Shown: in pieces, positions 23,219 through 46,638 of the stretch
Layout of the letters: every line of letters starts with the position of its first letter
How positions within the stretch are numbered: position 1 is the stretch's first letter
Assembly: GCA_029262055.1 (NCBI GenBank)
Contig: JAJDAD010000063.1
Coordinates: 62,001 to 126,000, forward strand
From: Candidatus Zhuqueibacterota bacterium
Lineage (GTDB): Bacteria; Zhuqueibacterota; Zhuqueibacteria; Oceanimicrobiales; Oceanimicrobiaceae
Direction: 5' to 3'
DNA: 64,000 bases
Notes under the pieces: model-generated
Databases searched by the model: none
Told to the model about the DNA's origin: nothing
Seen by the model: the letters and a program-made list of their open reading frames with translations, nothing else
Made by a program: the position numbers and the translations under genes

Positions 23219-23536
23219 TCAGCAACACTTCATGGAGCTGAAAATTCGTCCGATCATTTTCTGTGCCTTTTGCCAGATTTTTGCATTTATGCAGTAGCAG
23301 ATTTTGGGTCCTTCGATATTGCCGCGAATGATCCCAATTCTTCTTAACTCTTTCAGGTGCTGCGAAATGGTAGATTGCGAAAGAGGAAGTACATTTACCA
23401 AATCACCGCAAATGCAGGTCTGGTGCTTGATTAAGTACTGCAGAATTGCTATGCGCGCCGGATGGGCAAGCGCTTTGGCAAATTCTGCAAGCTCATTTTG
23501 TTCCAGGTTGAAAACTTCAGTTTTTGTGATACCCAT
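23219..23536 (-). CDS. arsR: ArsR-family arsenic-responsive repressor
   Basis: The ATG at 23536 gives 105 residues; a TTG twelve bases upstream is less likely. The winged helix has the recognition helix LSQSTISQHLKELRRIG. Arsenic ligands are suggested by the TCICGD motif at the start of the DNA-binding core, as in the classical ELCVCDL position, plus a C-terminal SMKCC pair. The family represses its own operon and releases DNA on binding As(III) or Sb(III). It is the first gene of the divergence-free cluster arsR-arsM-arsN2-arsC. An inverted repeat overlaps its predicted promoter. Confidence 0.92.
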   Translation of the reverse strand: MGITKTEVFNLEQNELAEFAKALAHPARIAILQYLIKHQTCICGDLVNVLPLSQSTISQHLKELRRIGIIRGNIEGPKICYCINAKIWQKAQKMIGRIFSSMKCC

Positions 23537-31365: not shown

Positions 31366-31409
31366 CCTGATAAGGTTCATCTGAATGTGGTTTGACAAAA
31401 CAAGTCACT

Positions 31410-34073
31410 ATGAATAAAATTATTCTCATCTGCCTCACCGCTATCTGCTGTTTGAATTCTCTGTTTGCCGGAACCACCGGTAAGATCAGCGGCAGGGTTA
31501 CGGAGGCCGCTTCCGGTGAACCTTTGCCCGGGGTCAACCTGATTCTTGTGGGTACGACAATGGGCGCTGCTTCCGACAGCCGCGGGCGATACGCGATTCT
31601 GAATGTGCCGCCCGGAGAATACGTGCTGCGCAGCAGCATTATCGGTTACAAGATTGTCGAAGTTACCGAAGTGCTGGTTCGTATAGATTTAACGACGGCG
31701 GTCGATTTTGAAATGACCGACACCGTTCTTGAAACAGGCGAGACGGTAACCGTGGTCGCTGAACGGCCGTTGGTGCAAAGGGATATCACCTCAGGCCTGG
31801 CCGTGGTCAATCAGGATGAGATCTCGAGTCTGCCTGTACAAGAGCTGGCGGAGGTTCTGTCTCTGCAGGCAGGAATAACCGAGGATGCCGGCGGCAATCT
31901 CCACTTTCGTGGTGGTCGCGCCGGTGAAGTCGCGTTCCTGGTCGATGGCATCTCTATCACAGATCCTTTTGACCGGGCTGCCGCACTTCAGGTAGAAAAC
32001 AATAGCGTGCAGGAGCTGGTCGCTGTTTCGGGAACATTCAACGCAGAATATGGACAGGCTCTTTCGGGCATTGTTGACATTGCGACCCGGGAAGGCGGAT
32101 CGCGACTCACTGGTCAGTTAAATGCTTATACAGGCGACTATGTCAGCACGAACGATGATGTTTTCTTTGAAATAGACGATGTCGAGCCGGCGGCTGTGCG
32201 AAATCTTCAGGGAACACTGAGTGGACCTGTTCCCTTGCTTGGGGAAAAGCTCACGTTTTTTGCCACCGGACGGTATTTCCGCAACGACGGTTGGTTGTTT
32301 GGCCAAAGGCGGTTTCTGCCCAGCGATTCCTCCAGTTTTTCGGCGCCTAATCCGGCAGATTGGGTCATCGTTGAGAGCGGAGACGGCGCGATCGTTCCAA
32401 TGAATCGCAGACGGAAATATTCGTGGCATGGCAAGCTCAGCTACAGATTTACGCCGAATCTCAAGCTTGCTTACACCTTGCTTGGAGAGGATGTCGATTC
32501 TCAGAACTACAATCATGTGTTTAAGCTGAACCCCGAGGGAAGTCTTAAGAAGTTCGAAAACAATCAAACCCATATCGGTTCATTTACCCACTCCTTGTCG
32601 TCAAAATCGTTTTACACTTTGCGTGGGTCTTTTTTTAAAAAGGAGTTTCGCCGGTTCGTGTTTGAGGATCCAACGGATGGTCGTTATGTCAATCCTCAGT
32701 TGCTCCGCCGCATCGGTAGCAGTTTCCACAGCGGCGGCATTCTCATGGATCATTTTACCCGGGAAACCAAAACGTGGAACGGCAAGTTCGATTTTACCAG
32801 CCAGGTGCATTCTGACCACCAAGTCAAACTCGGCGCCGAATTCCGATCCCATGAGTTAGAGGTCTCGGATATCAGAATTCGATTTGATCGCGATAGCAAT
32901 TTTATGCCGGTTGTCGACCCGGTCACAACGTTCAATAATAATCACTATGTGAACAAGCCAAAGGAGTTTGCGGTTTACGCGCAGGACAAAGTCGAATGGC
33001 GGGACATGATTATCAATTTCGGTTTACGATTTGACTTGTTTGATCCTAACGGTGTTGTTCCAGTTGAGTTGCGCGACCCTGAAAACTCCGAGAAGGTCTC
33101 AGCCAGCACAAAAAAACAACTCAGCCCACGCATCGGTGTGGCGTATCCGATTACTGATCGCGGTGTAATACATGCCTCCTACGGCCACTTCTTTCAGTTG
33201 CCGGCTTTCGACTTTCTTTATCAGAATTCCGAGTTTGAAGTTTTTCCTGGTGGCTTATCTGCCAGCAGGCTTGGCAGTGCCGACTTTGAGAACAAGATTG
33301 GAAATGCCAACCTTGAGCCGGAGCGGACGGTAGCCTACGAGATCGGTTTGAGGCAGCAGCTCGGCGAGGAGCTTGCCGTGGATGTTACGGGATACTTCAA
33401 GGATATCCGAAATTTGCTCGGTACCGAAATCAATGAACTGTTCACGCTAGGCGACAAATATGCGCGATTCATCAACCGCGACTTCGGTAACGTACGGGGC
33501 ATTACGATAACCGTAAACAATCGGGCCACCAGCTTGCTCAATTTTTCTGCCGATTATACTTTTCAAATCGCTGAGGGCAATGCGTCTGATCCGGCCTCAG
33601 TCTTTCTGGATAATCAAACAGACCCACCGGTTGAAACCGAGAAAAAGGTGATTCCGCTTGACTGGGATCGCCCCCACACATTGAATGTGCAGTTGGGTTT
33701 GCGGAGACGAAACGCATGGAACATCAATTTTCTGTTTAAGTTGTGGAGTGGGTTGCCCTACACCCCTTCAGCGCAAGGGACGCGTCTATTGCCGTTCGAA
33801 AACAGCTCGCGCAGACCGAGTCAGATCACTCTTGATTTCAGAGCTGCCCGTACTGTCAATCTATTGGGAATGAAATACAGATACTATCTGAATGTCGATA
33901 ACCTTCTCGATCGAAAGAATGAGATTATTGTGTTTGCGGATACTGGCCGGGCCGGCTCCACGCTTACCCGAAACCCCGCAAGAGGTCCGAATACGGTTGA
34001 TGAGTTTTTAACGCGTCCTGATTTTTATGCGCCGCCGCGTCAGGTGACGGCGGGGCTTGAGATAATCTTTTAA
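31410..34073 (+). CDS. TonB-dependent outer-membrane receptor, CarboxypepD_reg-like + plug + barrel
   Basis: The ATG at 31410 gives a proper signal peptide (MNKIILICLTAICCLNSLFAG); the frame opens slightly earlier at a TTG. The N-terminal beta-sandwich (GKISGRVTEAASGEPLPGVNL) is the carboxypeptidase-regulatory-like domain typical of FCB receptors. The plug domain follows (VQELAEVLSLQAGI, FRGGRAGEVAFLVDGISITDPF). The rest alternates amphipathic strands and ends with an aromatic residue (LEIIF), as outer-membrane barrels do. About 890 residues. It should import a nutrient, probably an oligosaccharide from context. No SusD gene follows; the next gene, two bases downstream, encodes the large surface protein. 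Confidence 0.9.
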   Translation: MNKIILICLTAICCLNSLFAGTTGKISGRVTEAASGEPLPGVNLILVGTTMGAASDSRGRYAILNVPPGEYVLRSSIIGYKIVEVTEVLVRIDLTTAVDFEMTDTVLETGETVTVVAERPLVQRDITSGLAVVNQDEISSLPVQELAEVLSLQAGITEDAGGNLHFRGGRAGEVAFLVDGISITDPFDRAAALQVENNSVQELVAVSGTFNAEYGQALSGIVDIATREGGSRLTGQLNAYTGDYVSTNDDVFFEIDDVEPAAVRNLQGTLSGPVPLLGEKLTFFATGRYFRNDGWLFGQRRFLPSDSSSFSAPNPADWVIVESGDGAIVPMNRRRKYSWHGKLSYRFTPNLKLAYTLLGEDVDSQNYNHVFKLNPEGSLKKFENNQTHIGSFTHSLSSKSFYTLRGSFFKKEFRRFVFEDPTDGRYVNPQLLRRIGSSFHSGGILMDHFTRETKTWNGKFDFTSQVHSDHQVKLGAEFRSHELEVSDIRIRFDRDSNFMPVVDPVTTFNNNHYVNKPKEFAVYAQDKVEWRDMIINFGLRFDLFDPNGVVPVELRDPENSEKVSASTKKQLSPRIGVAYPITDRGVIHASYGHFFQLPAFDFLYQNSEFEVFPGGLSASRLGSADFENKIGNANLEPERTVAYEIGLRQQLGEELAVDVTGYFKDIRNLLGTEINELFTLGDKYARFINRDFGNVRGITITVNNRATSLLNFSADYTFQIAEGNASDPASVFLDNQTDPPVETEKKVIPLDWDRPHTLNVQLGLRRRNAWNINFLFKLWSGLPYTPSAQGTRLLPFENSSRRPSQITLDFRAARTVNLLGMKYRYYLNVDNLLDRKNEIIVFADTGRAGSTLTRNPARGPNTVDEFLTRPDFYAPPRQVTAGLEIIF

Positions 34074-34075
34074 CC

Positions 34076-37000
34076 ATGGATGCTCTCAAAACGAATATGA
34101 TGGTTCGGAATCTGACTTCTATTCTAATCGCTTTTTTGTTGCTATCCCTTGCCGGGATTGCCCGGTCGCAGGCGACTTTTGTAGATACTTCCAAAGCGGA
34201 CAGAACCTGGCGCAAGAAAGGGATACACAACGGCAATCTTCTTCGCACGCTCTTTTTCAACTGGGGTGAAGTTGCTCGCTGGCCGGATCAGCCTTCAGTA
34301 GAGTGGCCCAAAGGCAGTGGTAACTCTTACGTCGATGGTGTAACCGTCCTGGTGGGCGCGGAGGTGGTCGAGGGTAACTTGGATACGCTTCACATTGTAG
34401 AGGCTGGGTTTCGTGAGCTGATGGAGATTTCTCCCGACGGCATTGAATACGGGTGGCAGCCCTTACCCCGATACGTAGATTTTGATCAAGATTCCCCTGC
34501 GATGAGCGACAGGCCAGAGAGTTGGCCCAAAACCTGGCCGGATAAGCCCGCGAGCTTCGATGGTATCTGGAACGGTTTCTTTGGTGCGAAGACCTCGGCG
34601 GACCAGGAGAGCTTCTTCGTCTTTGACGACGCGCTTGACAAACGGTTTGCTTACCAGCCGAGTCCGGTTTCGGATCCGCTTCGTGGCGGTCTCGGGATGC
34701 AGGTTCGTACGCGGGGTTTGCAGTGGGCGCACGTTCTGGCCGAAGACGTCCTTTTCTGGCTTTACGATGTGACCAATGTTGGCGAGAAGGGCTACCGGGA
34801 TGTATTTTTCGGAATGTACATTGACAGTGGCGTGGGCGGCACGGATGACTCTTTGGATGATAATGGGTTTTATGATACCGTCATCGATATTGCGTACGCC
34901 TGGGATAATGATGCAACTGGAGATATTGGTTTCGTTGGCGCTCCAGGCTACGTCGGTTATGCGTTTCTGGAGAGTCCCGGAAATCCTTTTGACGGAATCG
35001 ACAATGACCTGGATGGCCTGATTGATGAACGCCGCGATGACGGCATTGATAACGACGGCGACTGGCGTTCTTTCCTGGATCAGAATCAGAATGGTCAGTG
35101 GGACGAGGGCGAGCCGGTTTTTGACGACGTCGGGCAAGACGGCCTTGGCCCGCTGGACAGAGGATACCAGGGGAGAGATTTGGGAGAGTCTGACGGCCAA
35201 CCAACGGCGGGTGAGCCAAATTTTGATGCGACCGACCTGGGTGAATCCGACCAGATCGGCCTGACGGCAGTGGATCTCATTGTGGCAGGACTGAGCGGGG
35301 ATGTAACGTTCGAGACAGTAGGGCAGGAAGACCTTTGGAGCCGCATGGCCTCAGGTTTTTTGGACACGGAGCAAAATCTGAATACGAACGCGGGATTGAT
35401 CTACTCTTCAGGTGCATTTCCCATGCCGGTCGGACATACGGAACGCTTTTCCATGGCCCTGCTTGTTGGAGAAGATTTGGACGATTTGTTTCGCAACAAG
35501 AACACCGTGCAATTGGTTTTTGATGCGAATTACAATTTCGCCAGACCACCCGACAAACCCAACCTGAACGTGGTTCCCGGGGACAAAAAGGTTACCCTGT
35601 ATTGGGATCGGGTTGCAGAGGATTCGAGGGATATTTTTCTGGCCGATTCTCTTGGAAATGGGCGGAAGGATTTTGAAGGGTATCGGGTTTACCGTGCAAC
35701 CGATCCCAATTTTTTGGAAAACCGAACAATAACGGATGCCTTTGGTAACCCAATTTTTCGTAAGCCTATCGCTCAATTTGATCTTGTCAATGACCTGAAA
35801 GGCCCTCACCCGATTGGTGTGAATGGCGCCCAGTTCAACATGGGGACGAATTCCGGGTTGCAGCATGTGTTTGTCGATACCCCGCTAGTCAACGGACAAA
35901 CTTATTATTATGCGTTGGTTTCCTATGACCAGGGGGACGTGAGCATCGGCTTGGCTCCGAGTGAGTCGCCAAGCGTTATCGAAGCCGACATTGCCGGAAA
36001 TGTCAGAACCGATATCAACACTGCAATCGTGATACCCGACGCGCCAGCCGCAGGTTTTCGTCCTCCTGAAGTCCAGGGAGGTGGCGTGCTGCATCAAGCC
36101 GGCCCAGGCACCGGGCGGGTAGAAATTGAATTCTTCGACCATACCCTTATCAAGGATGGCCAGCGCTACCAAATCGCGTTTGAATCTGCAACCTTCCAAC
36201 AGGAGACGCAATCCTACTCGGTATTCGACCTTAACCGCAATCCACCAAGCCTGGTTGTGGAGAATAGTCCATTCGTGGGCTACGACGAGTTCGGTCGCCC
36301 GGAAGAGGGGCCGCTTTTTGATGGCATGCGAGTACAAGTGCTTAACGACACCACGGCCTATGATAGTCTGAATTCAGGTTGGCTTCCGGGCTCTGAAAGC
36401 AACTTGACAGTCTCGGGCGGCAAAAGTTCAGAAGGAATTCCCAATCGCAGAACAATTTTCCCGGCTGACTACGAAATCAGGTTCTTCGATACATTCGTAG
36501 ATACGTCTTCAGAGTTTGGTCTCCGGCCACAACCTACGAAATTTGAGGTGTGGAATGTCACTGACGATTTGAAAGTCGATTTCTTCTTTTTTGATTTGGA
36601 TAGGGATTCAACCTTGACTCACGGTGACAAAATTGTTCCTCTGTACTATCTGTTCGGTGATTCCGTTGCAAATAGCGGTGGCCGGCGGGATTATCGCATG
36701 GCCTGGGAAGCAGAATTCTTGGCGCCGGTTTCAGGCGATACCATTCTGCCGCAGTCAGACGATATTTATTTGATGAGCTCTACAAAGCCTTTCCGCACCG
36801 GGGATGTTTTCGAATATGAGACGCGTTCTGCGCACGTTGATAATATTGCCGCTGAACAAGAGATGGACCGTATAGCCGTGGTCCCCAATCCGTATCTTGG
36901 CGCAGCTTCCTGGGAACCGGCAAACCGGTTTCGTTCAGGCAGAGGGGAGCGCAAGATTGATTTCATACATCTCCCGGCGCTATGTACCATACGGGTTTAC

Positions 37001-37177
37001 ACCATGAGCGGTGTTCTGGTGCAAACCCTGGAACATAGCAGTACCGCGGATGATGGTTCCGAATCCTGGAATCTCATATCCAAGGATGGCATGGATATCG
37101 CGTACGGCGTTTATTTTTACCACGTGGAGGCACCCGGGGTTGGCGAGACAATCAAGAAATTCGCGATTGTGAAGTGA
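34076..37177 (+). CDS. Large secreted surface protein with Asp-rich calcium-loop-like repeats
   Basis: 1033 residues, start two bases after the receptor stop. A signal peptide ends near GIARSQ. Residues ~300-400 contain repeated DGIDNDLDGLIDE, DGIDNDGDW and DQNQNGQWDEGEP motifs, like thrombospondin type 3 or EF-hand calcium loops. A fibronectin-III-like stretch (~500-640, with a YRVYRATDPNF strand) and a C-terminal module (VVPNPYLG ... YGVYFYHVE ... KKFAIVK) follow, the latter resembling the FlgD/T9SS tail. No enzyme motif is visible. Its position directly after the receptor is where SusD would be in Bacteroidetes, so I infer a ligand-binding or receptor-partner role. The PorV-like gene overlaps its stop (GTGA). 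Confidence 0.72.
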   Translation: MDALKTNMMVRNLTSILIAFLLLSLAGIARSQATFVDTSKADRTWRKKGIHNGNLLRTLFFNWGEVARWPDQPSVEWPKGSGNSYVDGVTVLVGAEVVEGNLDTLHIVEAGFRELMEISPDGIEYGWQPLPRYVDFDQDSPAMSDRPESWPKTWPDKPASFDGIWNGFFGAKTSADQESFFVFDDALDKRFAYQPSPVSDPLRGGLGMQVRTRGLQWAHVLAEDVLFWLYDVTNVGEKGYRDVFFGMYIDSGVGGTDDSLDDNGFYDTVIDIAYAWDNDATGDIGFVGAPGYVGYAFLESPGNPFDGIDNDLDGLIDERRDDGIDNDGDWRSFLDQNQNGQWDEGEPVFDDVGQDGLGPLDRGYQGRDLGESDGQPTAGEPNFDATDLGESDQIGLTAVDLIVAGLSGDVTFETVGQEDLWSRMASGFLDTEQNLNTNAGLIYSSGAFPMPVGHTERFSMALLVGEDLDDLFRNKNTVQLVFDANYNFARPPDKPNLNVVPGDKKVTLYWDRVAEDSRDIFLADSLGNGRKDFEGYRVYRATDPNFLENRTITDAFGNPIFRKPIAQFDLVNDLKGPHPIGVNGAQFNMGTNSGLQHVFVDTPLVNGQTYYYALVSYDQGDVSIGLAPSESPSVIEADIAGNVRTDINTAIVIPDAPAAGFRPPEVQGGGVLHQAGPGTGRVEIEFFDHTLIKDGQRYQIAFESATFQQETQSYSVFDLNRNPPSLVVENSPFVGYDEFGRPEEGPLFDGMRVQVLNDTTAYDSLNSGWLPGSESNLTVSGGKSSEGIPNRRTIFPADYEIRFFDTFVDTSSEFGLRPQPTKFEVWNVTDDLKVDFFFFDLDRDSTLTHGDKIVPLYYLFGDSVANSGGRRDYRMAWEAEFLAPVSGDTILPQSDDIYLMSSTKPFRTGDVFEYETRSAHVDNIAAEQEMDRIAVVPNPYLGAASWEPANRFRSGRGERKIDFIHLPALCTIRVYTMSGVLVQTLEHSSTADDGSESWNLISKDGMDIAYGVYFYHVEAPGVGETIKKFAIVK

Positions 37178-38229: not shown

Positions 38230-40056
38230 ATGAAATTACTGACACTCGATTGGTCGATCATTATTGGCTATCTGGCAACATCGCTGTTGATTGGGCTTTA
38301 TTTCTCCAAGCGAGCCGGAAGCAACCTTGTCGAATATTTCGTGGCAGGGCGGAAGCTGAGCTGGTGGGTCGCCGGTACTTCTATCGTGGCAACATCGTTT
38401 GCGGCCGATACGCCTCTGGCGATTGCCCGCATTGTGCGCACCCAAGGGTTGCAAGGCAATTGGTTTTGGTGGAGTGGTTTGATGGGTTTCGTATTGTGCA
38501 TGTTTTTTTTCGCAAGAATGTGGCGAAGAGCGAAGCTCCTCACGGATGCTGAATTTCTCGAGTTGCGCTATGAAGGAAAACCGGCGGCAACCTTACGTTT
38601 GTTTCATGCGGTCTACCGGTCTGTCCTGTTTAACAGCATTACCATGGGGTGGGTCATACTTGGCATGCAGAAGTTGTCGGTTGAAACATTTGGTTGGTCC
38701 AAGCTGACCGCAATTCCCTTGCTGATCGCGGCCTGCCTGGTCTACACTGCTTTGGCCGGTCTCTGGGGCGTCGTGATTACGGACTTATTTCAATTTGTTT
38801 TGGCAATGGTAGGCTCAATTATCCTGACAATCCTGGTACTTGATTATGTTGGAGGTCCTGCACAACTTGCTGAAAAAGTAGTGGCCGCAGCCGCAACAAA
38901 TTCCGCAGGAGCGAATGGGTATGCTGCCGTTGCGGGGCCGGACCGAATTCTGAGCTTCTTCCCTGACTTTTCGGCCGGAGGATTGGCGGTTTTGACATTC
39001 GCGGTCTTCATCGGAGTGCAGTGGTGGGGTGGAGGCGAAGGCGGCGGTTTTTTGGTTCAGAGATTGTTTGCCACCAGGGACGAACGCCATGCGGTGCTGG
39101 CGTTGCTTTGGTTTAGTGTTGCGCACTTCGTGCTGCGCACCTGGCCCTGGATTGTCGTAGGCCTGGCGTCCGTTATCGTTTTTCCGGACCTTGCAGACCC
39201 TGAATCCGCTTACCCCAAGATGATGGTCAGGTTTTTACCCACGGGACTCCGGGGCCTCATGGTTGCCTCCTTTATTGCCGCCTTCATGTCTACCATAACA
39301 ACGCACCTGAATTGGGGCGCTTCCTATTTGATGAATGACGTGTACAGACGTTTCTTGAGAAAAGACGCATCAGACCGGCACTATGTCATGGTTTCACAGC
39401 TCTTCGTCCTGGCCATGGCGCTGTTGGCGGGTTTTGCAGCGTGGCAGATGAATTCAATCTACAGTGCCTGGTTGTATTTGACTGAAATCATGGCCGGCAC
39501 CATTTTCGTGGTCCTGCTCAGGTGGTACTGGTGGCGCATCAACGCCTGGTCTGAAATTGCAGCTATGATCAGCTCTCTGGTTATCTCCAATTCTTTTCGG
39601 TTAATTAAGCCGCTGGCTGCGCTGTTCGACCAGTTAGCGATGACTTCGTTATCCGGTTTTTTGCACAGCATTGAATTCATTGCCCTGGATCAGTGGTACC
39701 CGGTACGGTATCTGATTATCCTGGCGATCTGTACTGTGGTTTGGTTGGTGGTGACTTACCGCACACAGCCGATTTCTGAAGCGCACCTTATGGCTTATTT
39801 TCGCCGCGTACGGCCGGGGGGGTGGTGGGCACCCATCGCTCGGAAATGTCCCGACGTCAAGCCCTCTGAGGTGGGTTGGCTGGAAATCGGAAGCTGGATA
39901 CTGAGTGTTACGGCCATATTCCTGGCTCTTTTTGGTGTCGGATGGTTGTTTCTGGGGGAGGCCGTTAAGGGGGGAATAGCGATTGGCTGTGCACTGGTTC
40001 TGGGCTACTTTCTGCTACAGAACCTTTCACGAATGAACTGGGGCGAAGTCAACTGA
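38230..40056 (+). CDS. Sodium:solute symporter (SSS family)
   Basis: 608 residues with 13-15 membrane helices. The start at 38230 is three bases after the previous stop. Family markers are YFVAGRKLSWWVAGTSIVATSFAADTPL near the N-terminus and GLMVASFIAAFMSTITTHLNWGASYLMNDVYRRF, the sodium-binding region around helix 8. A long cytoplasmic loop with RRVRPGGWW precedes the last helices. The protein should bring a solute, most likely a disaccharide or monosaccharide given the downstream phosphorylase, across the inner membrane with Na+. Substrate is inferred from context only. Confidence 0.9.
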   Translation: MKLLTLDWSIIIGYLATSLLIGLYFSKRAGSNLVEYFVAGRKLSWWVAGTSIVATSFAADTPLAIARIVRTQGLQGNWFWWSGLMGFVLCMFFFARMWRRAKLLTDAEFLELRYEGKPAATLRLFHAVYRSVLFNSITMGWVILGMQKLSVETFGWSKLTAIPLLIAACLVYTALAGLWGVVITDLFQFVLAMVGSIILTILVLDYVGGPAQLAEKVVAAAATNSAGANGYAAVAGPDRILSFFPDFSAGGLAVLTFAVFIGVQWWGGGEGGGFLVQRLFATRDERHAVLALLWFSVAHFVLRTWPWIVVGLASVIVFPDLADPESAYPKMMVRFLPTGLRGLMVASFIAAFMSTITTHLNWGASYLMNDVYRRFLRKDASDRHYVMVSQLFVLAMALLAGFAAWQMNSIYSAWLYLTEIMAGTIFVVLLRWYWWRINAWSEIAAMISSLVISNSFRLIKPLAALFDQLAMTSLSGFLHSIEFIALDQWYPVRYLIILAICTVVWLVVTYRTQPISEAHLMAYFRRVRPGGWWAPIARKCPDVKPSEVGWLEIGSWILSVTAIFLALFGVGWLFLGEAVKGGIAIGCALVLGYFLLQNLSRMNWGEVN

Positions 40057-40076: not shown

Positions 40077-41282
40077 ATGGGATATATCAAACCTGCTAAT
40101 GCGCAGTTGATTAAGGGGCTAAATCAACAGCTAGTTTTAAATATGATTAAAAAGGAAGGCGCTATTTCAGGCGCTGACCTAGCCAAAATCACTCGCCTGC
40201 AGCCGGCAACAGTATCGAAGATTTTGAAGCACATCAATGATTTGGGGATGATACGGGAGGCAGGAATCGGAGAATCCACAAAGCTTGGCGGTAAACGCCC
40301 AAATCTTTGGCGGCTTAATGCTGACTTTGGTTATGTCATAGGTGTGGAGGTTCTCTCGTTTGAACTGCGCGCCGTACTTCTCGATTTCGAATCAAAAGTT
40401 GTAGCTGAGCACAGCGAGTCCTTACCGAAAAAGATCACCAGTGAGAATATTGCAGATCATATTCACGCGTTAGTCAGGACAGTCTGCAATGCCGGGCGCA
40501 TTGCCATGAAAAATCTCATGGGGGTGGCTCTGGGGGTTAGCGGTATAGTTGATTCGGAAGACGGCGCGATCAAGTTCTCCATCGATCTTGGGTTGCGTGA
40601 GCACCCAATCAGGGATATTTTGGAAAAAAGACTTAACACCCAGGTTGTGGTTGATAACGATGCGAACGCCGCCGCAGTTGGCACGAAGTGGATGGGATGT
40701 GGCCAGGACAAGAGGCATCTCGTCTACCTCATCGTTAACGAGCGCATTACCGGCATAGGTTGCGGCATTATTCTGAACGACGAACTGTTTAGGGGCACAA
40801 CCAATAGTGCGGGTGAGTTGACGTTGTCGTTGCCGGCATTGGATGATTTGCGCCATGATGAAGCAAGTTCCGAGAATGGCAAGCCTGCCACTAGCCTGAC
40901 CATGACAAACTTGATCGCGATGGCACGAGAGGGCGATGACAATGCCCGGCAGACGTTGGTTGATTTGGCCAACGTCTTAGCCGAAGAGGTTGCTCGAATC
41001 CTTGATTTCATAAACCCGGAATTGGTTGTCTTCGGTGGAGATATTGTCGAAGCCGCTGACTTGATCCTGGAACCAATCAGAAGCGAGGTAAAAAAGCTTA
41101 CCCTGGAATTACCGTTCAAAGCTGTGACCATAAAGATGACCGGGTTTGGTCAAAACGCGGTCGCAATCGGCGCGGCATCATTGATATTTAAGCAGGTTTT
41201 CAAAAAGACCCAATCTGCTGCGAGACATGTCTTTGCGATTCCAGGTACAAAGCGGAATAAACCAGTGGGTTTTTCAGACTGA
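40077..41282 (+). CDS. ROK-family transcriptional regulator (NagC/Xyl repressor type)
   Basis: 401 residues with a GAGGAGAGAG ribosome site. An N-terminal winged helix (IKKEGAISGADLAKITRLQPATVSKILKHINDLGM region) precedes a ROK domain with VVDNDANAAAVGTKWMG (the ATP/sugar-binding DxD/N region) and a C-terminal VFGGDIVEAADLI. The usual zinc-binding Cys cluster of ROK sugar kinases (CxCGxxGC) is not evident, consistent with a regulator. It probably senses a sugar released by the pathway and controls the locus. The palindrome at 29771 is a candidate operator. Confidence 0.88.
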   Translation: MGYIKPANAQLIKGLNQQLVLNMIKKEGAISGADLAKITRLQPATVSKILKHINDLGMIREAGIGESTKLGGKRPNLWRLNADFGYVIGVEVLSFELRAVLLDFESKVVAEHSESLPKKITSENIADHIHALVRTVCNAGRIAMKNLMGVALGVSGIVDSEDGAIKFSIDLGLREHPIRDILEKRLNTQVVVDNDANAAAVGTKWMGCGQDKRHLVYLIVNERITGIGCGIILNDELFRGTTNSAGELTLSLPALDDLRHDEASSENGKPATSLTMTNLIAMAREGDDNARQTLVDLANVLAEEVARILDFINPELVVFGGDIVEAADLILEPIRSEVKKLTLELPFKAVTIKMTGFGQNAVAIGAASLIFKQVFKKTQSAARHVFAIPGTKRNKPVGFSD

Positions 41283-41288
41283 TTCAGT

Positions 41289-41328
41289 AAAAAAAGCCTG
41301 TCACAATGCGGCCACATTGCGACAGGCT
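41289..41328 (-). terminator. Strong intrinsic terminator for minus-strand transcription, just after the ROK gene
   Basis: AGCCTGTC (41295-41302) and GACAGGCT (41321-41328) form the base of a 15-position stem with a GGCC loop. The two mismatches on the plus strand are A-C pairs, which become G-U pairs on the minus strand, so only the minus-strand RNA pairs fully. On that strand the stem runs into seven T (41295-41289). The plus strand has no T-run after the stem. It therefore terminates a transcript coming from the right. Confidence 0.7.
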
Positions 41329-41335
41329 AACACAA

Positions 41336-41454
41336 CAAAGCAAGATGCGTCGATGCTCCGCAAGTAAGCAGTGACCGACGGCAACCTTAAACTAGTGTGA
41401 AGGTCGGGTAGCTGTGGTAAGCCGTGGCTTTTCAGCTAGACCCGTTTTGCTTTG
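41336..41454. ncRNA. Candidate structured RNA with a four-way junction, upstream of the GH94 gene
   Basis: P1 pairs CAAAGCAAGATG (41336-41347) with CGTTTTGCTTTG (41443-41454): 12 pairs, two of them G-U on the plus strand. Inside are three arms. P2 is CGTCG/CGACG (41348-41352 with 41376-41380), capped by TGCT/AGCA. P3 is ACCTT/AAGGT (41384-41388 with 41400-41404). P4 is GGGTAGCTG (41406-41414) with CAGCTA and CCC (41433-41443, GA bulge), capped by AGCC/GGCT-type pairs. The P1 wobble pairs favour the plus strand, as a leader of the GH94 gene 58 bases downstream. The adjacent terminator favours a minus-strand small RNA. I could not match it to a known riboswitch family. Confidence 0.5.
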
Positions 41455-41511
41455 ATGTGGGAAGTTAACATCTTCGGCGAGAATTCAAAATCTTTTTGAG
41501 GAAAGTCTTTT

Positions 41512-43950
41512 ATGAGTTATGGCCATTTTTCAAGTGACGGAAGAGAGTATATTATTACGCGACCGGATACCCCGCGGCCGTGGGTGAACTATCTTTTCAA
41601 TCACAGCTATCATGCAATTGTGTCGCAGACCGGTGGTGGATTTAGCTATTGCAGGGATCCAAAGTTCAACCGCGTGCACAAATACGAGCGAATGGTGAGC
41701 GATCGTCCGGGCCGCTATTTGTATTGCCGGGACAAGGAAAGCGGTGAAACCTGGTCGGCAAATTGGCAGCCGATGATGCGACCTTTTCAGGAATTCGAAA
41801 CCCGTCATGGTCTCGGTTACACTGTGATACGTTCCCGCTATTTCGACATCGAGGTCCGGATGACCTTTTTCGTGCCGCTGGATTCGCCATGCGAGGTCTG
41901 CCGGGTAGAGGTAAAGAATCACTCTGGCGTGAGCAGATCTTTACAGTTGTTTCCATTCGTTGATTTTGTTGCAGGCGATGCCCAACTGGAGATCGATTAT
42001 CCCAATATTCTGTCCTTGTATAATCGCAGTTTTTTTGATGCTGAGCATGGCGCCATTATCGCCTACAAACAACCACACCCCGGCCGTGAGTTGGAGAGTT
42101 GTGCTTTTTTCGCCAGCTCAGCTTCCGTTTCAGGATTTGAGTGCGCAAGAGAGGCTTTCCTCGGGCGCTACGGCTCCCTGAGCAACCCCAAAGTCGTTCA
42201 GGATGGCAAGTGCTCAGATTCGACGGTTTGTGGCGAGGACATGGTCGGTGTTTTTGAACACCAGTTTGAAATAGCCGCCAATGAATCGGATACGTTCGTT
42301 CTCCTGACAGGGTTTGTCGACGATGAGGCAATTACCGATACAAATGCTCCAAACGCGAAAGAGTCTTTCTATCAGAGCCTGCCATCCGCCGCCTGCAAGC
42401 GCATGATAAAGAATATGATGGATGAATTCCTGAGCGAGAAGCAGGCCGCTGATGAGCTGAAGAGGATCGATGAGTACTGGCAGCAGCAAACCTCCAGCCT
42501 GGTGGTCGAGACCCCTGATGCGGAGTTTAACCGCATGACCAATATCTGGGGACGCTACCAACTCTTTGGGATTACGCATTGGCGGGGCACTTCTGCCTAC
42601 CACAACGCCGAGGGCGGCAGAGGTTACCGTGATACGGCTCAAGATGCGGTGGGAATCCTGGCACTTGATGCGGTTCTCGCTAAAAGCGTGCTGGAAAAAC
42701 TGCTGCGGTATCAATATGCCAATGGCCATGCTGTCTCGGGATTCTCTGATAAAGAGGGTAGTTGGGAAACTCAGGGTCAGGCGGTTGTTACCGGCAAGTC
42801 CGATATGGCCGTTTGGCTGGTTTATGCGGTTGTGGCCTATCTTGAAGAAACCGGAGACCTGGGATTCTTGGATAAAAGATATCCATTTCTGGATAAGGGC
42901 GAAGCATCTGTCTATGCGCATTGCTTGCGCGCATTGGAGTTCCTGACGAGAAACCTGGGTAGCAACGGCCTGCCGCTCATCGGCAAGGCAGACTGGAACG
43001 ATGCCTACGATCGTTTGGGCTACCGTGGAAAGGGAGAGTCACTGTGGTTAGCCATGGCAATCGTCCGTGCACTAAATATGATGATCCAGGTTAGTGGATA
43101 CATCGGAGATGACAAAAAGTCGCTTTTACTGAATGAATTGGCCGAGAATCTACAGAGTAATATCCGGAAATTCGGTTGGGATGGGAATTGGTTCATAGCT
43201 GCCATCAACGACAACGGTTTTCGTGTCGGTTCAATTGAGAACAGTCAGGGGAAGCTGCCGCTAAACTCACAAACCTGGGCAGTTCTCAGCGGGATCGTCG
43301 ATAGCAAACAGGGCCATGAGTTGGCTGAACTGGTAGACCGTGAATTGGACACAGAGTATGGTCCAGCCCTCTTCTCTCCAGAGTACCGGGACTACCATCC
43401 GGGCATCGGCCGGGTGACCTCATTTGCCCCTGGTACTAAGGAAAATGCTGCCGTGTTTTCTCATGCCGCAGCTTTCAAAGTAGTCGCTGATTGCGTTTTG
43501 AAACGCGGCAACAAGGCGTACGACACTTTCAGAAAGGTCATGCCGGGCAACCCCCGGAAAGCAGATGCGGACCTGCACAAAGTCGAGCCGTACGTCTACG
43601 CGGAGTACATCGTCGGGCCGGGCCATCCAACCAGGTTTGGCGAAGGCGGCTTCACCTGGAATACCGGTACAGCCCCCTGGATGTTCATGGCAGCAACAGA
43701 GTGGATATGTGGCGCCAGGCGGACTTTGGATGGACTGTTAATCGATCCTTGTATCCCAGCTGAGTGGAAGGAATTCAAGATTGTCAGGCCTTTTAGAAAT
43801 GCCATTTATCAAATCATTGTGCGGAATCCAGGTCATGTCGAATCGGGCGTCGTGCAGATGAAGGTCGATGGAATTGTCGCGCAAGGCCAGTTGATATCGC
43901 CACACGAAGACGGCCGAGAGCATCTAGTCGAGGTTCTCCTGGGAAAGTAG
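41512..43950 (+). CDS. GH94 disaccharide phosphorylase (cellobiose/laminaribiose/chitobiose type)
   Basis: 812 residues, no signal peptide, so cytoplasmic. Start ATG at 41512 with a GAGGA site. The N-terminal beta-sandwich carries YHAIVSQTGGGFSY and RYLYCRDKESGE-like strands, and the (alpha/alpha)6 barrel begins near WGRYQLFG. The acid residue is Asp497 in GKADWNDAYDRLG. RGYRDTAQDAVG and NTGTAPWMFMAATEW are GH94 signatures near the phosphate site. The reaction is phosphorolysis of a beta-linked disaccharide to a sugar 1-phosphate plus a monosaccharide, saving one ATP. GH16-like enzymes in the same locus make cellobiose or laminaribiose plausible substrates, but the specificity is inferred. 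Confidence 0.9.
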   Translation: MSYGHFSSDGREYIITRPDTPRPWVNYLFNHSYHAIVSQTGGGFSYCRDPKFNRVHKYERMVSDRPGRYLYCRDKESGETWSANWQPMMRPFQEFETRHGLGYTVIRSRYFDIEVRMTFFVPLDSPCEVCRVEVKNHSGVSRSLQLFPFVDFVAGDAQLEIDYPNILSLYNRSFFDAEHGAIIAYKQPHPGRELESCAFFASSASVSGFECAREAFLGRYGSLSNPKVVQDGKCSDSTVCGEDMVGVFEHQFEIAANESDTFVLLTGFVDDEAITDTNAPNAKESFYQSLPSAACKRMIKNMMDEFLSEKQAADELKRIDEYWQQQTSSLVVETPDAEFNRMTNIWGRYQLFGITHWRGTSAYHNAEGGRGYRDTAQDAVGILALDAVLAKSVLEKLLRYQYANGHAVSGFSDKEGSWETQGQAVVTGKSDMAVWLVYAVVAYLEETGDLGFLDKRYPFLDKGEASVYAHCLRALEFLTRNLGSNGLPLIGKADWNDAYDRLGYRGKGESLWLAMAIVRALNMMIQVSGYIGDDKKSLLLNELAENLQSNIRKFGWDGNWFIAAINDNGFRVGSIENSQGKLPLNSQTWAVLSGIVDSKQGHELAELVDRELDTEYGPALFSPEYRDYHPGIGRVTSFAPGTKENAAVFSHAAAFKVVADCVLKRGNKAYDTFRKVMPGNPRKADADLHKVEPYVYAEYIVGPGHPTRFGEGGFTWNTGTAPWMFMAATEWICGARRTLDGLLIDPCIPAEWKEFKIVRPFRNAIYQIIVRNPGHVESGVVQMKVDGIVAQGQLISPHEDGREHLVEVLLGK

Positions 43951-44072: not shown

Positions 44073-46562
44073 ATGAACAAGTTAGTAGGTCTTTTAGTGC
44101 TCACGGTTTTTTTCGTGAACGTTAATGTCGGAATGGCACAAAGCCTGGAGAGTTTTGATGAGCCACTCAGTTTTAGCCCCGGCCCCGGCGAGTGGTTTAC
44201 TTTTAGCTGCGATGAAAGCTATGTGACCTTTTCCGGAGCACTATCCGGCGGCGCATTGGTTTTGGAAAAAGAACCTGTGGGATTTGGCTGTGGCGCGCAG
44301 TATGCGTTTGCAGCTCCCCAGGACTGGACGGGTAAGCAAGTTTCATTCTGGGTAAAAATTGACACCACCGAGTTCACCAGCGTTAACTTTCAAATCTTCG
44401 ACGCCAATGATGAAGAGCAGTGGGAGCAAAAGGTCTCGCAAGTTCCCCAGGGCGGCGCCTGGGTGGAATTTGTTGCCACGATTTCTCCTGAGCATTTTGT
44501 GAACAATGGTAACGGCGGCATTGGGGACGGAGCCTTGGACATAACTCAGATTAACAAGCTCAACCTGATTGCGTTCAACAATGGCGAGATTTTTCGAAGA
44601 ACCGTTATGTTTGATGAGATGACACTACGTGATGTGCCCACCACCGAGACTCTGATCGAGAGTTTTGAGGATTCGGTAACCGTTGAACCGCCTTCGTACG
44701 AACCGACTCCCGGAACCTGGAATTCCTTTTCCGGCGATACATCGTTCATCGCGACCGACGGCCCAGCTCACGATGGAACCAACTCTTTCGTAGTACAAAA
44801 ATCAGGCGTTGGATTTGGTGCCGGGATACAGTACGCATTGCCGGCAGTGGAGGATTGGACCGGCAAAGCAATGTCGTTTTGGGTTTACGTCGATACTGTT
44901 GAGTTTTCCGGCTACAATTTTCAGGTGTTTGATGCGGTCGATGATGAACAGTGGGAGCAGACCATCATCACCAACCCGTTGCAAGGAGGCTGGCAACAAG
45001 TGGTTGCTCATATCGACCCGGCATATTTCCAGAATAATGGCAATGGCCCCGGAATTGGCGACGGACAACTTGATGTAACTCAAATCAAGAAATTCAACGT
45101 CATCTTCTTTAATCGGGGTGAAAACTTCACGCGCGAGTTCAGAGCAGATGACTTTCGCCTCCTCGACTCACCCATTCGGCCACTGACTGCTGCGCACCAG
45201 ATTGAGAATTTTGACAACGCTGTTTTTGAGCCGCCGAGCTACGACCCGACACCGGGGCTTTGGAACTCTTTTTCAGCGGATACTTTCTATGTCACTCCGG
45301 ACGGTGGCCTTACGGGAGCCGGAGTTGTCATCGAAAAATCTCCGACCGGCTTTGGGACGGGCATTCAATACGGTCTGCCGGAAATTCAAAACTGGCGCGG
45401 CAAGCAAGTGTCGTTTTGGGTTCACATCGACAGCACCGAGTTCACCAGTGTGAACTTTCAAGTGTTTGACGCTAACGATGACGAGCAGTGGGAACAGAAG
45501 GTAAGCCAGTCCTTACAAACCGGTACCTGGGTTGAGTACATCGTCACGATCTCGCCGGAGTATTTTGTTAACAACGGCAACGGCCCCGGGCTTGGCGATG
45601 GCAAACTGGACGTCACGCAGATAAAGAAGTTCAACCTCATCATTTTTAATAGCGGTGAGATTTTTAAACGCACCATCACCGTCGATGAATTTGAGTTGCG
45701 GGACTTGTACGCTGACGATACCCAGCTCGAGAGTTTTGAAAACGAGCCCACGTTTGAGCCGCCGTCGTATGAGCCCACACCGGGCACCTGGAACTCTTTT
45801 TCCGCAGACTCTTTCTACGTGACCAACAGATTCGGACACGACGGCCAGTCCTCAGTTAAGGTGGTAAAGAGCGGAGTAGGTTTCGGAACAGGACTGCAGT
45901 ATGCTTTGCCAGCGACAGCGGACTGGACAAAGAGCCGTGTGACTTTCTGGGTATTTGCCGATACGGTTGAGTTTTCCGGTTACAATTTCCAGGTGTTTGA
46001 CGCCAATGACGACGAGCAATGGGAGCAAGCGATCGTCGCTAACCCTCTGCAGGCGGGCTGGCAGGAAGTGGTCGCTAACATTGAGCCGGTCTATTTCCAG
46101 AATAACGGCAATGGTCCAGGGGTTGGTGACGGACAGCTTGATGTAACCCAGATCAAGAAGTTCAATGTTATCATGTTCAATCGCGGCGAGAATTTTACCC
46201 GGACCTTTTATGTGGATGACTTCAGGATCGATGGCAGTCCGCTTGTAACCGGCATCAATGATTCACCGGTTGAGTTACCGGTAGCATTCGCTTTGGGGCA
46301 GAACTACCCGAATCCGTTTAACCCCTCGACCACCATTGAGTACAGGTTAGAACAAGCTGCTGACATCAACCTGACCATTTACAATATCATGGGCCAGAAA
46401 GTCCGAACCTTAGTTCAAGGTACGCAGCGGGCAGGAGCACATGCGGTGCAGTGGAGCGGCAGAAACGATTTTGGTAGAGTTGTTTCCAGTGGCACTTACT
46501 TCTATGTTTTGCGCAGCGCTGATAACGTGACGTTGACGCGCAAGCTTATGCTTCTGAAGTAG
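44073..46562 (+). CDS. Secreted four-repeat binding protein with FlgD/T9SS-type C-terminal module
   Basis: 829 residues; ATG at 44073 behind GGGAGGT. Signal peptide ends at VGMAQ. Four tandem domains of about 170-182 residues begin at residues 26, 196, 378 and 553. Each opens with (E/I)ESF or ENF, contains a WNSFS-type strand, SFWV, NFQ(V/I)FDANDDEQWEQ, NNGNGPG and KFN(V/L)I. They look like beta-jelly-roll carbohydrate-binding modules, possibly of the CIA30/CBM kind; no catalytic residues are apparent. The last ~90 residues are the sorting-type tail ending LTRKLMLLK. It probably coats the cell surface and binds glycan. An intrinsic terminator follows the gene. Confidence 0.8.
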   Translation: MNKLVGLLVLTVFFVNVNVGMAQSLESFDEPLSFSPGPGEWFTFSCDESYVTFSGALSGGALVLEKEPVGFGCGAQYAFAAPQDWTGKQVSFWVKIDTTEFTSVNFQIFDANDEEQWEQKVSQVPQGGAWVEFVATISPEHFVNNGNGGIGDGALDITQINKLNLIAFNNGEIFRRTVMFDEMTLRDVPTTETLIESFEDSVTVEPPSYEPTPGTWNSFSGDTSFIATDGPAHDGTNSFVVQKSGVGFGAGIQYALPAVEDWTGKAMSFWVYVDTVEFSGYNFQVFDAVDDEQWEQTIITNPLQGGWQQVVAHIDPAYFQNNGNGPGIGDGQLDVTQIKKFNVIFFNRGENFTREFRADDFRLLDSPIRPLTAAHQIENFDNAVFEPPSYDPTPGLWNSFSADTFYVTPDGGLTGAGVVIEKSPTGFGTGIQYGLPEIQNWRGKQVSFWVHIDSTEFTSVNFQVFDANDDEQWEQKVSQSLQTGTWVEYIVTISPEYFVNNGNGPGLGDGKLDVTQIKKFNLIIFNSGEIFKRTITVDEFELRDLYADDTQLESFENEPTFEPPSYEPTPGTWNSFSADSFYVTNRFGHDGQSSVKVVKSGVGFGTGLQYALPATADWTKSRVTFWVFADTVEFSGYNFQVFDANDDEQWEQAIVANPLQAGWQEVVANIEPVYFQNNGNGPGVGDGQLDVTQIKKFNVIMFNRGENFTRTFYVDDFRIDGSPLVTGINDSPVELPVAFALGQNYPNPFNPSTTIEYRLEQAADINLTIYNIMGQKVRTLVQGTQRAGAHAVQWSGRNDFGRVVSSGTYFYVLRSADNVTLTRKLMLLK
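44148..46255 (+). repeat. ABAB tandem protein repeats within the four-repeat gene
   Basis: Units start at 44148, 44658, 45204 and 45729. Units 1 and 3 share TEFTSVNFQ, QWEQKVSQ and ISPE(H/Y)FVNNGNG. Units 2 and 4 share VEFSGYNFQVFDA, NPLQ(G/A)GWQ and YFQNNGNGPG. The pattern points to duplication of a two-domain block. Confidence 0.8.
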
Positions 46563-46591: not shown

Positions 46592-46638
46592 AAGAAGTGC
46601 CGCCTCATGCGTCAGCAGAGGCGGAACTTCTTTTCTTT
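46592..46638 (+). terminator. Intrinsic terminator after the four-repeat gene
   Basis: AAGAAGTGCCGCCTC (46592-46606) pairs with GAGGCGGAACTTCTT (46618-46632) with one mismatch over 15 positions and an 11-base loop. It continues into TTCTTT. It separates the symporter/GH94/binding-protein unit from the GH16 unit. Confidence 0.8.

Follow-up and report, generated by a model that had tools for sequence, protein, structure and literature searches.

A candidate intrinsically terminated small RNA on the minus strand between a ROK-family regulator gene and a GH94 phosphorylase gene in Calditrichota

A compact inverted repeat at 41336-41454 of the window (the whole 64-kb stretch of DNA analysed here, from an uncultured bacterium) separates a gene for a sugar regulator from a gene for a glycoside phosphorylase of family GH94, and raises the question of which strand is read as RNA and what such an RNA could do to its neighbours. 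A preliminary description of the sequence had proposed a sugar-responsive leader of the GH94 gene or, alternatively, a small RNA. The position that it gave between the two genes is borne out by the domain assignments (Table 1). In the current analysis the alternative of a small RNA has gained support, on the minus strand, from the fold, a terminator and the layout of a related locus. The reading that we favour, and consider fairly probable, is that of a stand-alone, intrinsically terminated minus-strand small RNA that most likely acts as a cis-antisense RNA to a read-through mRNA of the ROK and GH94 genes.

Table 1. Genes and RNA parts of the locus, in window positions; G050 is the related genome described in the text
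Feature	Position	Strand	Evidence or remark
TonB-dependent receptor	31392-34073	+	
Sodium:solute symporter, same operon direction	38230..40056	+	PF00474; precedes ROK in G050 too
ROK-family repressor-like regulator, convergent with the RNA	40077..41282	+	PF00480, E 1.9e-38
Candidate small RNA, ~165-171 nt	41289..41459	-	z -6.87 for body and terminator (41288-41470); ortholog layout in G050
Ends of the RNA	probable 5' end near 41456-41459; 3' end at T tract ~41289	-	
Intrinsic terminator: 15 perfect pairs, 4-nt loop, T7 tract	41289..41328 (hairpin 41328-41295)	-	
Closing stem, 3' strand UUGCUUUGUUGUG	41331..41343	-	MFE and centroid; inverted repeat
Arm C: GCCGUCGGU..AUCGACGC	41346..41383	-	fold
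Arm B: ACCUU..AAGGU	41384..41404	-	fold
Arm A: CGGGU..ACCCG, inner AGCUG..CAGCU, apical hairpin	41405..41444	-	fold
Closing stem, 5' strand CACAUCAAAGCAA; 12 pairs, one U-U mismatch	41447..41459	-	MFE and centroid
Possible promoter TTTT-N19-TAACTTCC, directly before the closing stem	41460..41490	-	weak Bacteroidota-like match
GH94 glycoside phosphorylase, divergent from the RNA	41512..43950	+	PF17167, PF06165

The inverted repeat is present as described and extends to 41331-41459, with arms of 21 nt that are 81% complementary. The preliminary description had drawn a 12-pair stem around three arms on the plus strand. The 12-pair closing stem does form there, but the minimum free energy (MFE) structure above the stem is one long rod with a z of -1.93, and the mirrored four-way fold has 2 pairs fewer and is 4.3 kcal/mol worse than the MFE. 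For the minus strand, the MFE and the centroid structure are both the four-way junction (-42.9 kcal/mol, z -4.43, equalled in 0 of 200 shuffles). The ensemble diversity is 6.1 on the minus strand against 39.7 on the plus strand (129-nt version), the mean probability of the MFE pairs is 0.93 against 0.57, and nearly every base of the minus-strand RNA is paired in the fold ensemble. The fold is real, and the strand to which it had been assigned is wrong, the minus strand being favoured.

A fold survey of 796 stretches of equal length in the window, covering both strands, found a z of -4 or lower in 3; the element itself reaches -5.4 on the minus and -3.9 on the plus strand in this survey, values that are noisy with 24 shuffles each. 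Unusually stable folds are also seen at 36961-37089 on the minus strand (z -6.3), inside a coding gene, and at 23361-23489 on the plus strand (z -4.2), between genes of the minus strand. At the place of the element, 23 and 35 of 1500 shuffles (~2%) fold into a closing stem that holds exactly three branches, so the junction taken by itself is moderate evidence.

The terminator, which the preliminary description overlooked, starts ~8 bases past the interval given there, on the minus strand. The element therefore has the make-up of an intrinsically terminated small RNA, namely a structured body followed on the same strand by a hairpin and a U tract, in an intergenic region. No other perfect-stem terminator of 10 bp or longer than that of the element exists on either strand of the window, as counted by a scan for a perfect stem of at least 10 bp, a loop of 3-8 and 6/8 T, which leaves longer loops and mismatches (e.g. 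near 46592-46636) uncounted. The hairpin at 46592-46636 (AAGAAGTGCCGCCTC..GAGGCGGAACTTCTTTTC, plus strand) is intergenic, lies just past the gene at 44073-46562 and resembles a long-looped operon terminator; few stretches of the window fold more strongly than the one around it.

The nearest relative of the GH94 gene has been identified in the genome G050, which belongs to Calditrichota and to another family of the same class; over the 1500 bases compared, one of its contigs does not differ from the MAG 'Calditrichaeota bacterium CLD5' (QQUM01000297.1). The gene order symporter, ROK, intergenic region and GH94 is kept, with identities to the window genes of 58% for ROK and 58-68% for GH94, and the intergenic region is 328 bp long. 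Its minus strand repeats the layout of the window, with a promoter box, a closing stem, three arms, a linker and a terminator in this order. The promoter box is of the Bacteroidota type, TTTG-N20-TATTTTTA (shuffle fraction 0.02), and ends 3-4 nt before the closing stem. The candidate promoter of the window occupies the same relative place and, with a shuffle fraction of 0.54, is not significant by itself. The closing stem of G050, UGCAAaGACAA/UUGUCUUGCA, makes 10 pairs around the three arms, the linker is short (6 nt, in register with that of the window), and the terminator is made of 15 bp with a 4-nt loop and a U tract. The first arm is opened by GGG and closed by CCC as is arm A of the window, and it is branched in G050. 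The arms of the two RNAs share no alignable sequence, and the homology of arm B and arm C is by order alone. The minus-strand fold of G050 has a z of -4.47 with the terminator and -3.04 without it, and the plus-strand fold without it a z of -0.99.

Between the two terminator stems, both partners have changed in 5 pairs and a single partner in 1, with no pair broken; control slides of the stems gave at most 1 double change. The sequence AGCC and the apex AUGUkGCCGCAU are common to both terminators and the outer stem differs. In the closing stem there is one compensatory change, with an offset of one base. The covariation seen at this one homologous locus thus speaks strongly for the terminator and weakly for the closing stem, and the predicted four-way junction is supported, short of proof, from two sequences. 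At both loci the hairpin has a perfect stem on the minus strand only, and in each species some of the pairs in it are G-U, which on the plus strand would turn into mismatches. Neither intergenic region carries a strong plus-strand terminator. Terminators of at least 12 bp were matched 4 times in 209,719 bases of other loci of the same phylum, some of which overlap, and from this frequency the chance that one falls in the syntenic 328-bp gap, and there on the same strand, would be of the order of 0.3%. The existence of the small RNA is well supported in silico by the fold, the terminator and the syntenic layout of the ortholog; its promoter, expression, target and mechanism are predictions.

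As the preliminary description had suggested, no known riboswitch fits the element. No family of Rfam 15 reaches its gathering score in the window, at E <= 10 neither locus has a meaningful match, and the tRNA/tmRNA model of ARAGORN does not recognise the element. Our literature search returned no paper joining Calditrichota with a small RNA, and none joining cellobiose phosphorylase with ROK and a small RNA.

Further copies were not found in 82 Calditrichota genomes by DNA, covariance models or the terminator pattern, the reach of these searches being limited by weak primary conservation. A single-sequence covariance model, R1, detects no second copy in the 82 genomes of the phylum, a weak negative since R1 misses even the RNA of G050. 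A skeleton model of the closing stem and terminator, R2, recovers both known loci with scores carried mostly by the terminator. Neither the terminator pattern allowing up to 2 mismatches nor a DNA search with the G050 sequence brought up another palindromic match or a further homolog, respectively, and inspection of the regions upstream of other GH94 relatives revealed no such RNA unit. Short DNA matches in relatives appear on inspection to be chance or shared terminator letters. The next match of R2, G040:C217, was rejected as an unrelated long hairpin with a terminator. In this unit (L083 1430-1572) a terminator of ~15 bp, AACCCTGAGC..GCTCAGGGTTTTATTTT, comes after the long hairpin ACGGAGAGU..ACUCUCCGU. 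A divergent gene has its 5' end beside the unit, which could be another small RNA in this class, without homology to the RNA described here.

Adjacent ROK-like and GH94 genes with short spacers and without the RNA have been identified in Omnitrophota (L047, L048, L058, L060, L061) and in one Calditrichia MAG (L054), where size and C-terminal sequence were the grounds for calling the upstream gene ROK-like. The GH94 proteins of these loci show ~50% identity. The occurrence of the pair across phyla suggests horizontal transfer or an old operon. As the adjacency occurs in these genomes without the RNA unit, the RNA appears to have been inserted in a lineage-specific way into a gene pair that existed before it.

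The best NCBIfam match of the ROK gene is NagC/Mlc, below the cut-off. A PorV-like protein is also encoded among the plus-strand neighbours, and past GH94 there are secreted proteins with sorting domains. A sigma-70-like plus-strand promoter was found before GH94 neither in the window nor in G050, by a scan that the promoters of this phylum may not fit. With no plus promoter found between the RNA and GH94, the GH94 gene may rely on transcription running through from ROK. Transcription of the small RNA would start at the closing stem or close to it (~41459), and the transcript would fold into the compact four-way junction and be ended by its own terminator at ~41289, diverging from GH94 and converging on ROK. 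It cannot be a leader on this strand, which carries beyond it just the antisense of ROK. A read-through transcript of ROK and GH94 would contain the exact complement of the whole small RNA, because GH94 is without a recognisable promoter and the two genes lie close together on one strand in related loci. We propose tentatively, as a possibility that may well prove wrong, that cis-antisense action lowers the output of GH94 or uncouples it from that of ROK and the transporter, under the control of sugar status or of ROK. Polymerase collision or transcriptional interference could operate alongside antisense pairing.

The same minus-strand transcript could instead act in trans on other mRNAs or titrate a protein, its proximity to GH94 then providing only co-regulation by the ROK repressor. 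The terminator and a fold in which nearly all bases are paired agree with such a role, and the conservation of the apex AUGUkGCCGCAU despite the change of the outer stem fits a recognised feature. The near-complete self-pairing, however, leaves few unpaired bases for a seed, which makes a trans-acting RNA of the seed type less natural, while protein binding would still be possible. Domains of Hfq and ProQ were not found in the source genome (97% complete), which weakens the case for a classical trans-acting small RNA and not that for an antisense RNA, and the presence at a single locus ties the RNA to its neighbours; we regard this reading as unlikely. A further step away, and a long shot in our judgement, is a novel family of structured RNAs, to date limited to one Calditrichota sugar locus, in which the rigid four-way junction would be the functional part rather than an antisense seed, binding a protein such as ROK or a sugar metabolite and controlling the neighbours in trans. 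The terminator might also be the only functional part, shielding ROK from antisense transcription that starts in or before GH94, with the folded body incidental. It is the best conserved part and lies ~13 bp past the ROK stop in the window and ~58 bp past it in G050; yet the minus-strand fold without the terminator is strong in the window and moderate in G050 (z -4.43 and -3.04), and both loci have a stem near the terminator around three arms, which renders this explanation rather improbable.

Two explanations do without a minus-strand RNA, and both appear very unlikely to us. A cis-acting leader of GH94 on the plus strand, either a sugar riboswitch or an mRNA-stability element, would suit the position between ROK and GH94 and the 12-pair closing stem that the plus strand can form. 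The plus-strand folds are nevertheless poor in both species (z -1.93 and -0.99) with a diffuse ensemble, strong plus-strand terminators and Rfam matches are lacking at both loci, the terminator stem is perfect on the minus strand only, and the U tract of the hairpin points away from GH94; the sugar-responsive leader of the preliminary description is therefore disfavoured. ROK repressors bind inverted repeats, and the 34-bp palindrome could on this ground serve the ROK repressor as a DNA operator instead of being a terminator, the more so as the inner core ATGCGGCMACAT is common to both loci. The outer arms, however, are fully compensated and the T tract is one-sided, as an RNA would show, and the palindrome has no other copy with 0-1 mismatches in the window and thus none at the head of the operon.

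The antisense small RNA favoured here resembles some known systems in part. The terminator hairpin of G050 gives a weak Rfam match (17.8 bits, E 0.88) to the antisense hairpin RNA RNA-OUT of IS10 (RF00240), which is far under the gathering score of 41 and represents a generic hairpin resemblance. GibS of Bacteroides thetaiotaomicron is a 145-nt small RNA induced by GlcNAc, the targets of which are metabolic genes (PMC7366714). The present RNA is likened to this intergenic, sugar-linked RNA of ~145 nt by description, being itself intergenic and situated in a sugar locus. The DonS-type antisense RNAs of the PULs of Bacteroides are 78-128 nt long and are divergent from and antisense to susC homologs, and selected cis-antisense RNAs of Bacteroides are predicted to fold extensively (PMC7366714). 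Like DonS, the present RNA is divergent from a sugar-utilisation gene and antisense, a likeness by description in which repression is presumed. Unlike DonS, which faces susC homologs in another phylum, it is ~170 nt long and lies between ROK and GH94, and the gene from which it diverges is GH94 and not a susC homolog.

The locus also illustrates that identical inverted repeats can pass for a riboswitch when one strand is read and point to a small RNA when the other is, so that a one-strand reading can mislead. The analysis offers a concrete small RNA candidate in a phylum known largely from metagenomes, and if the RNA is real, the control of sugar loci by opposite-strand RNAs described in Bacteroides would extend to a glycoside-phosphorylase locus.
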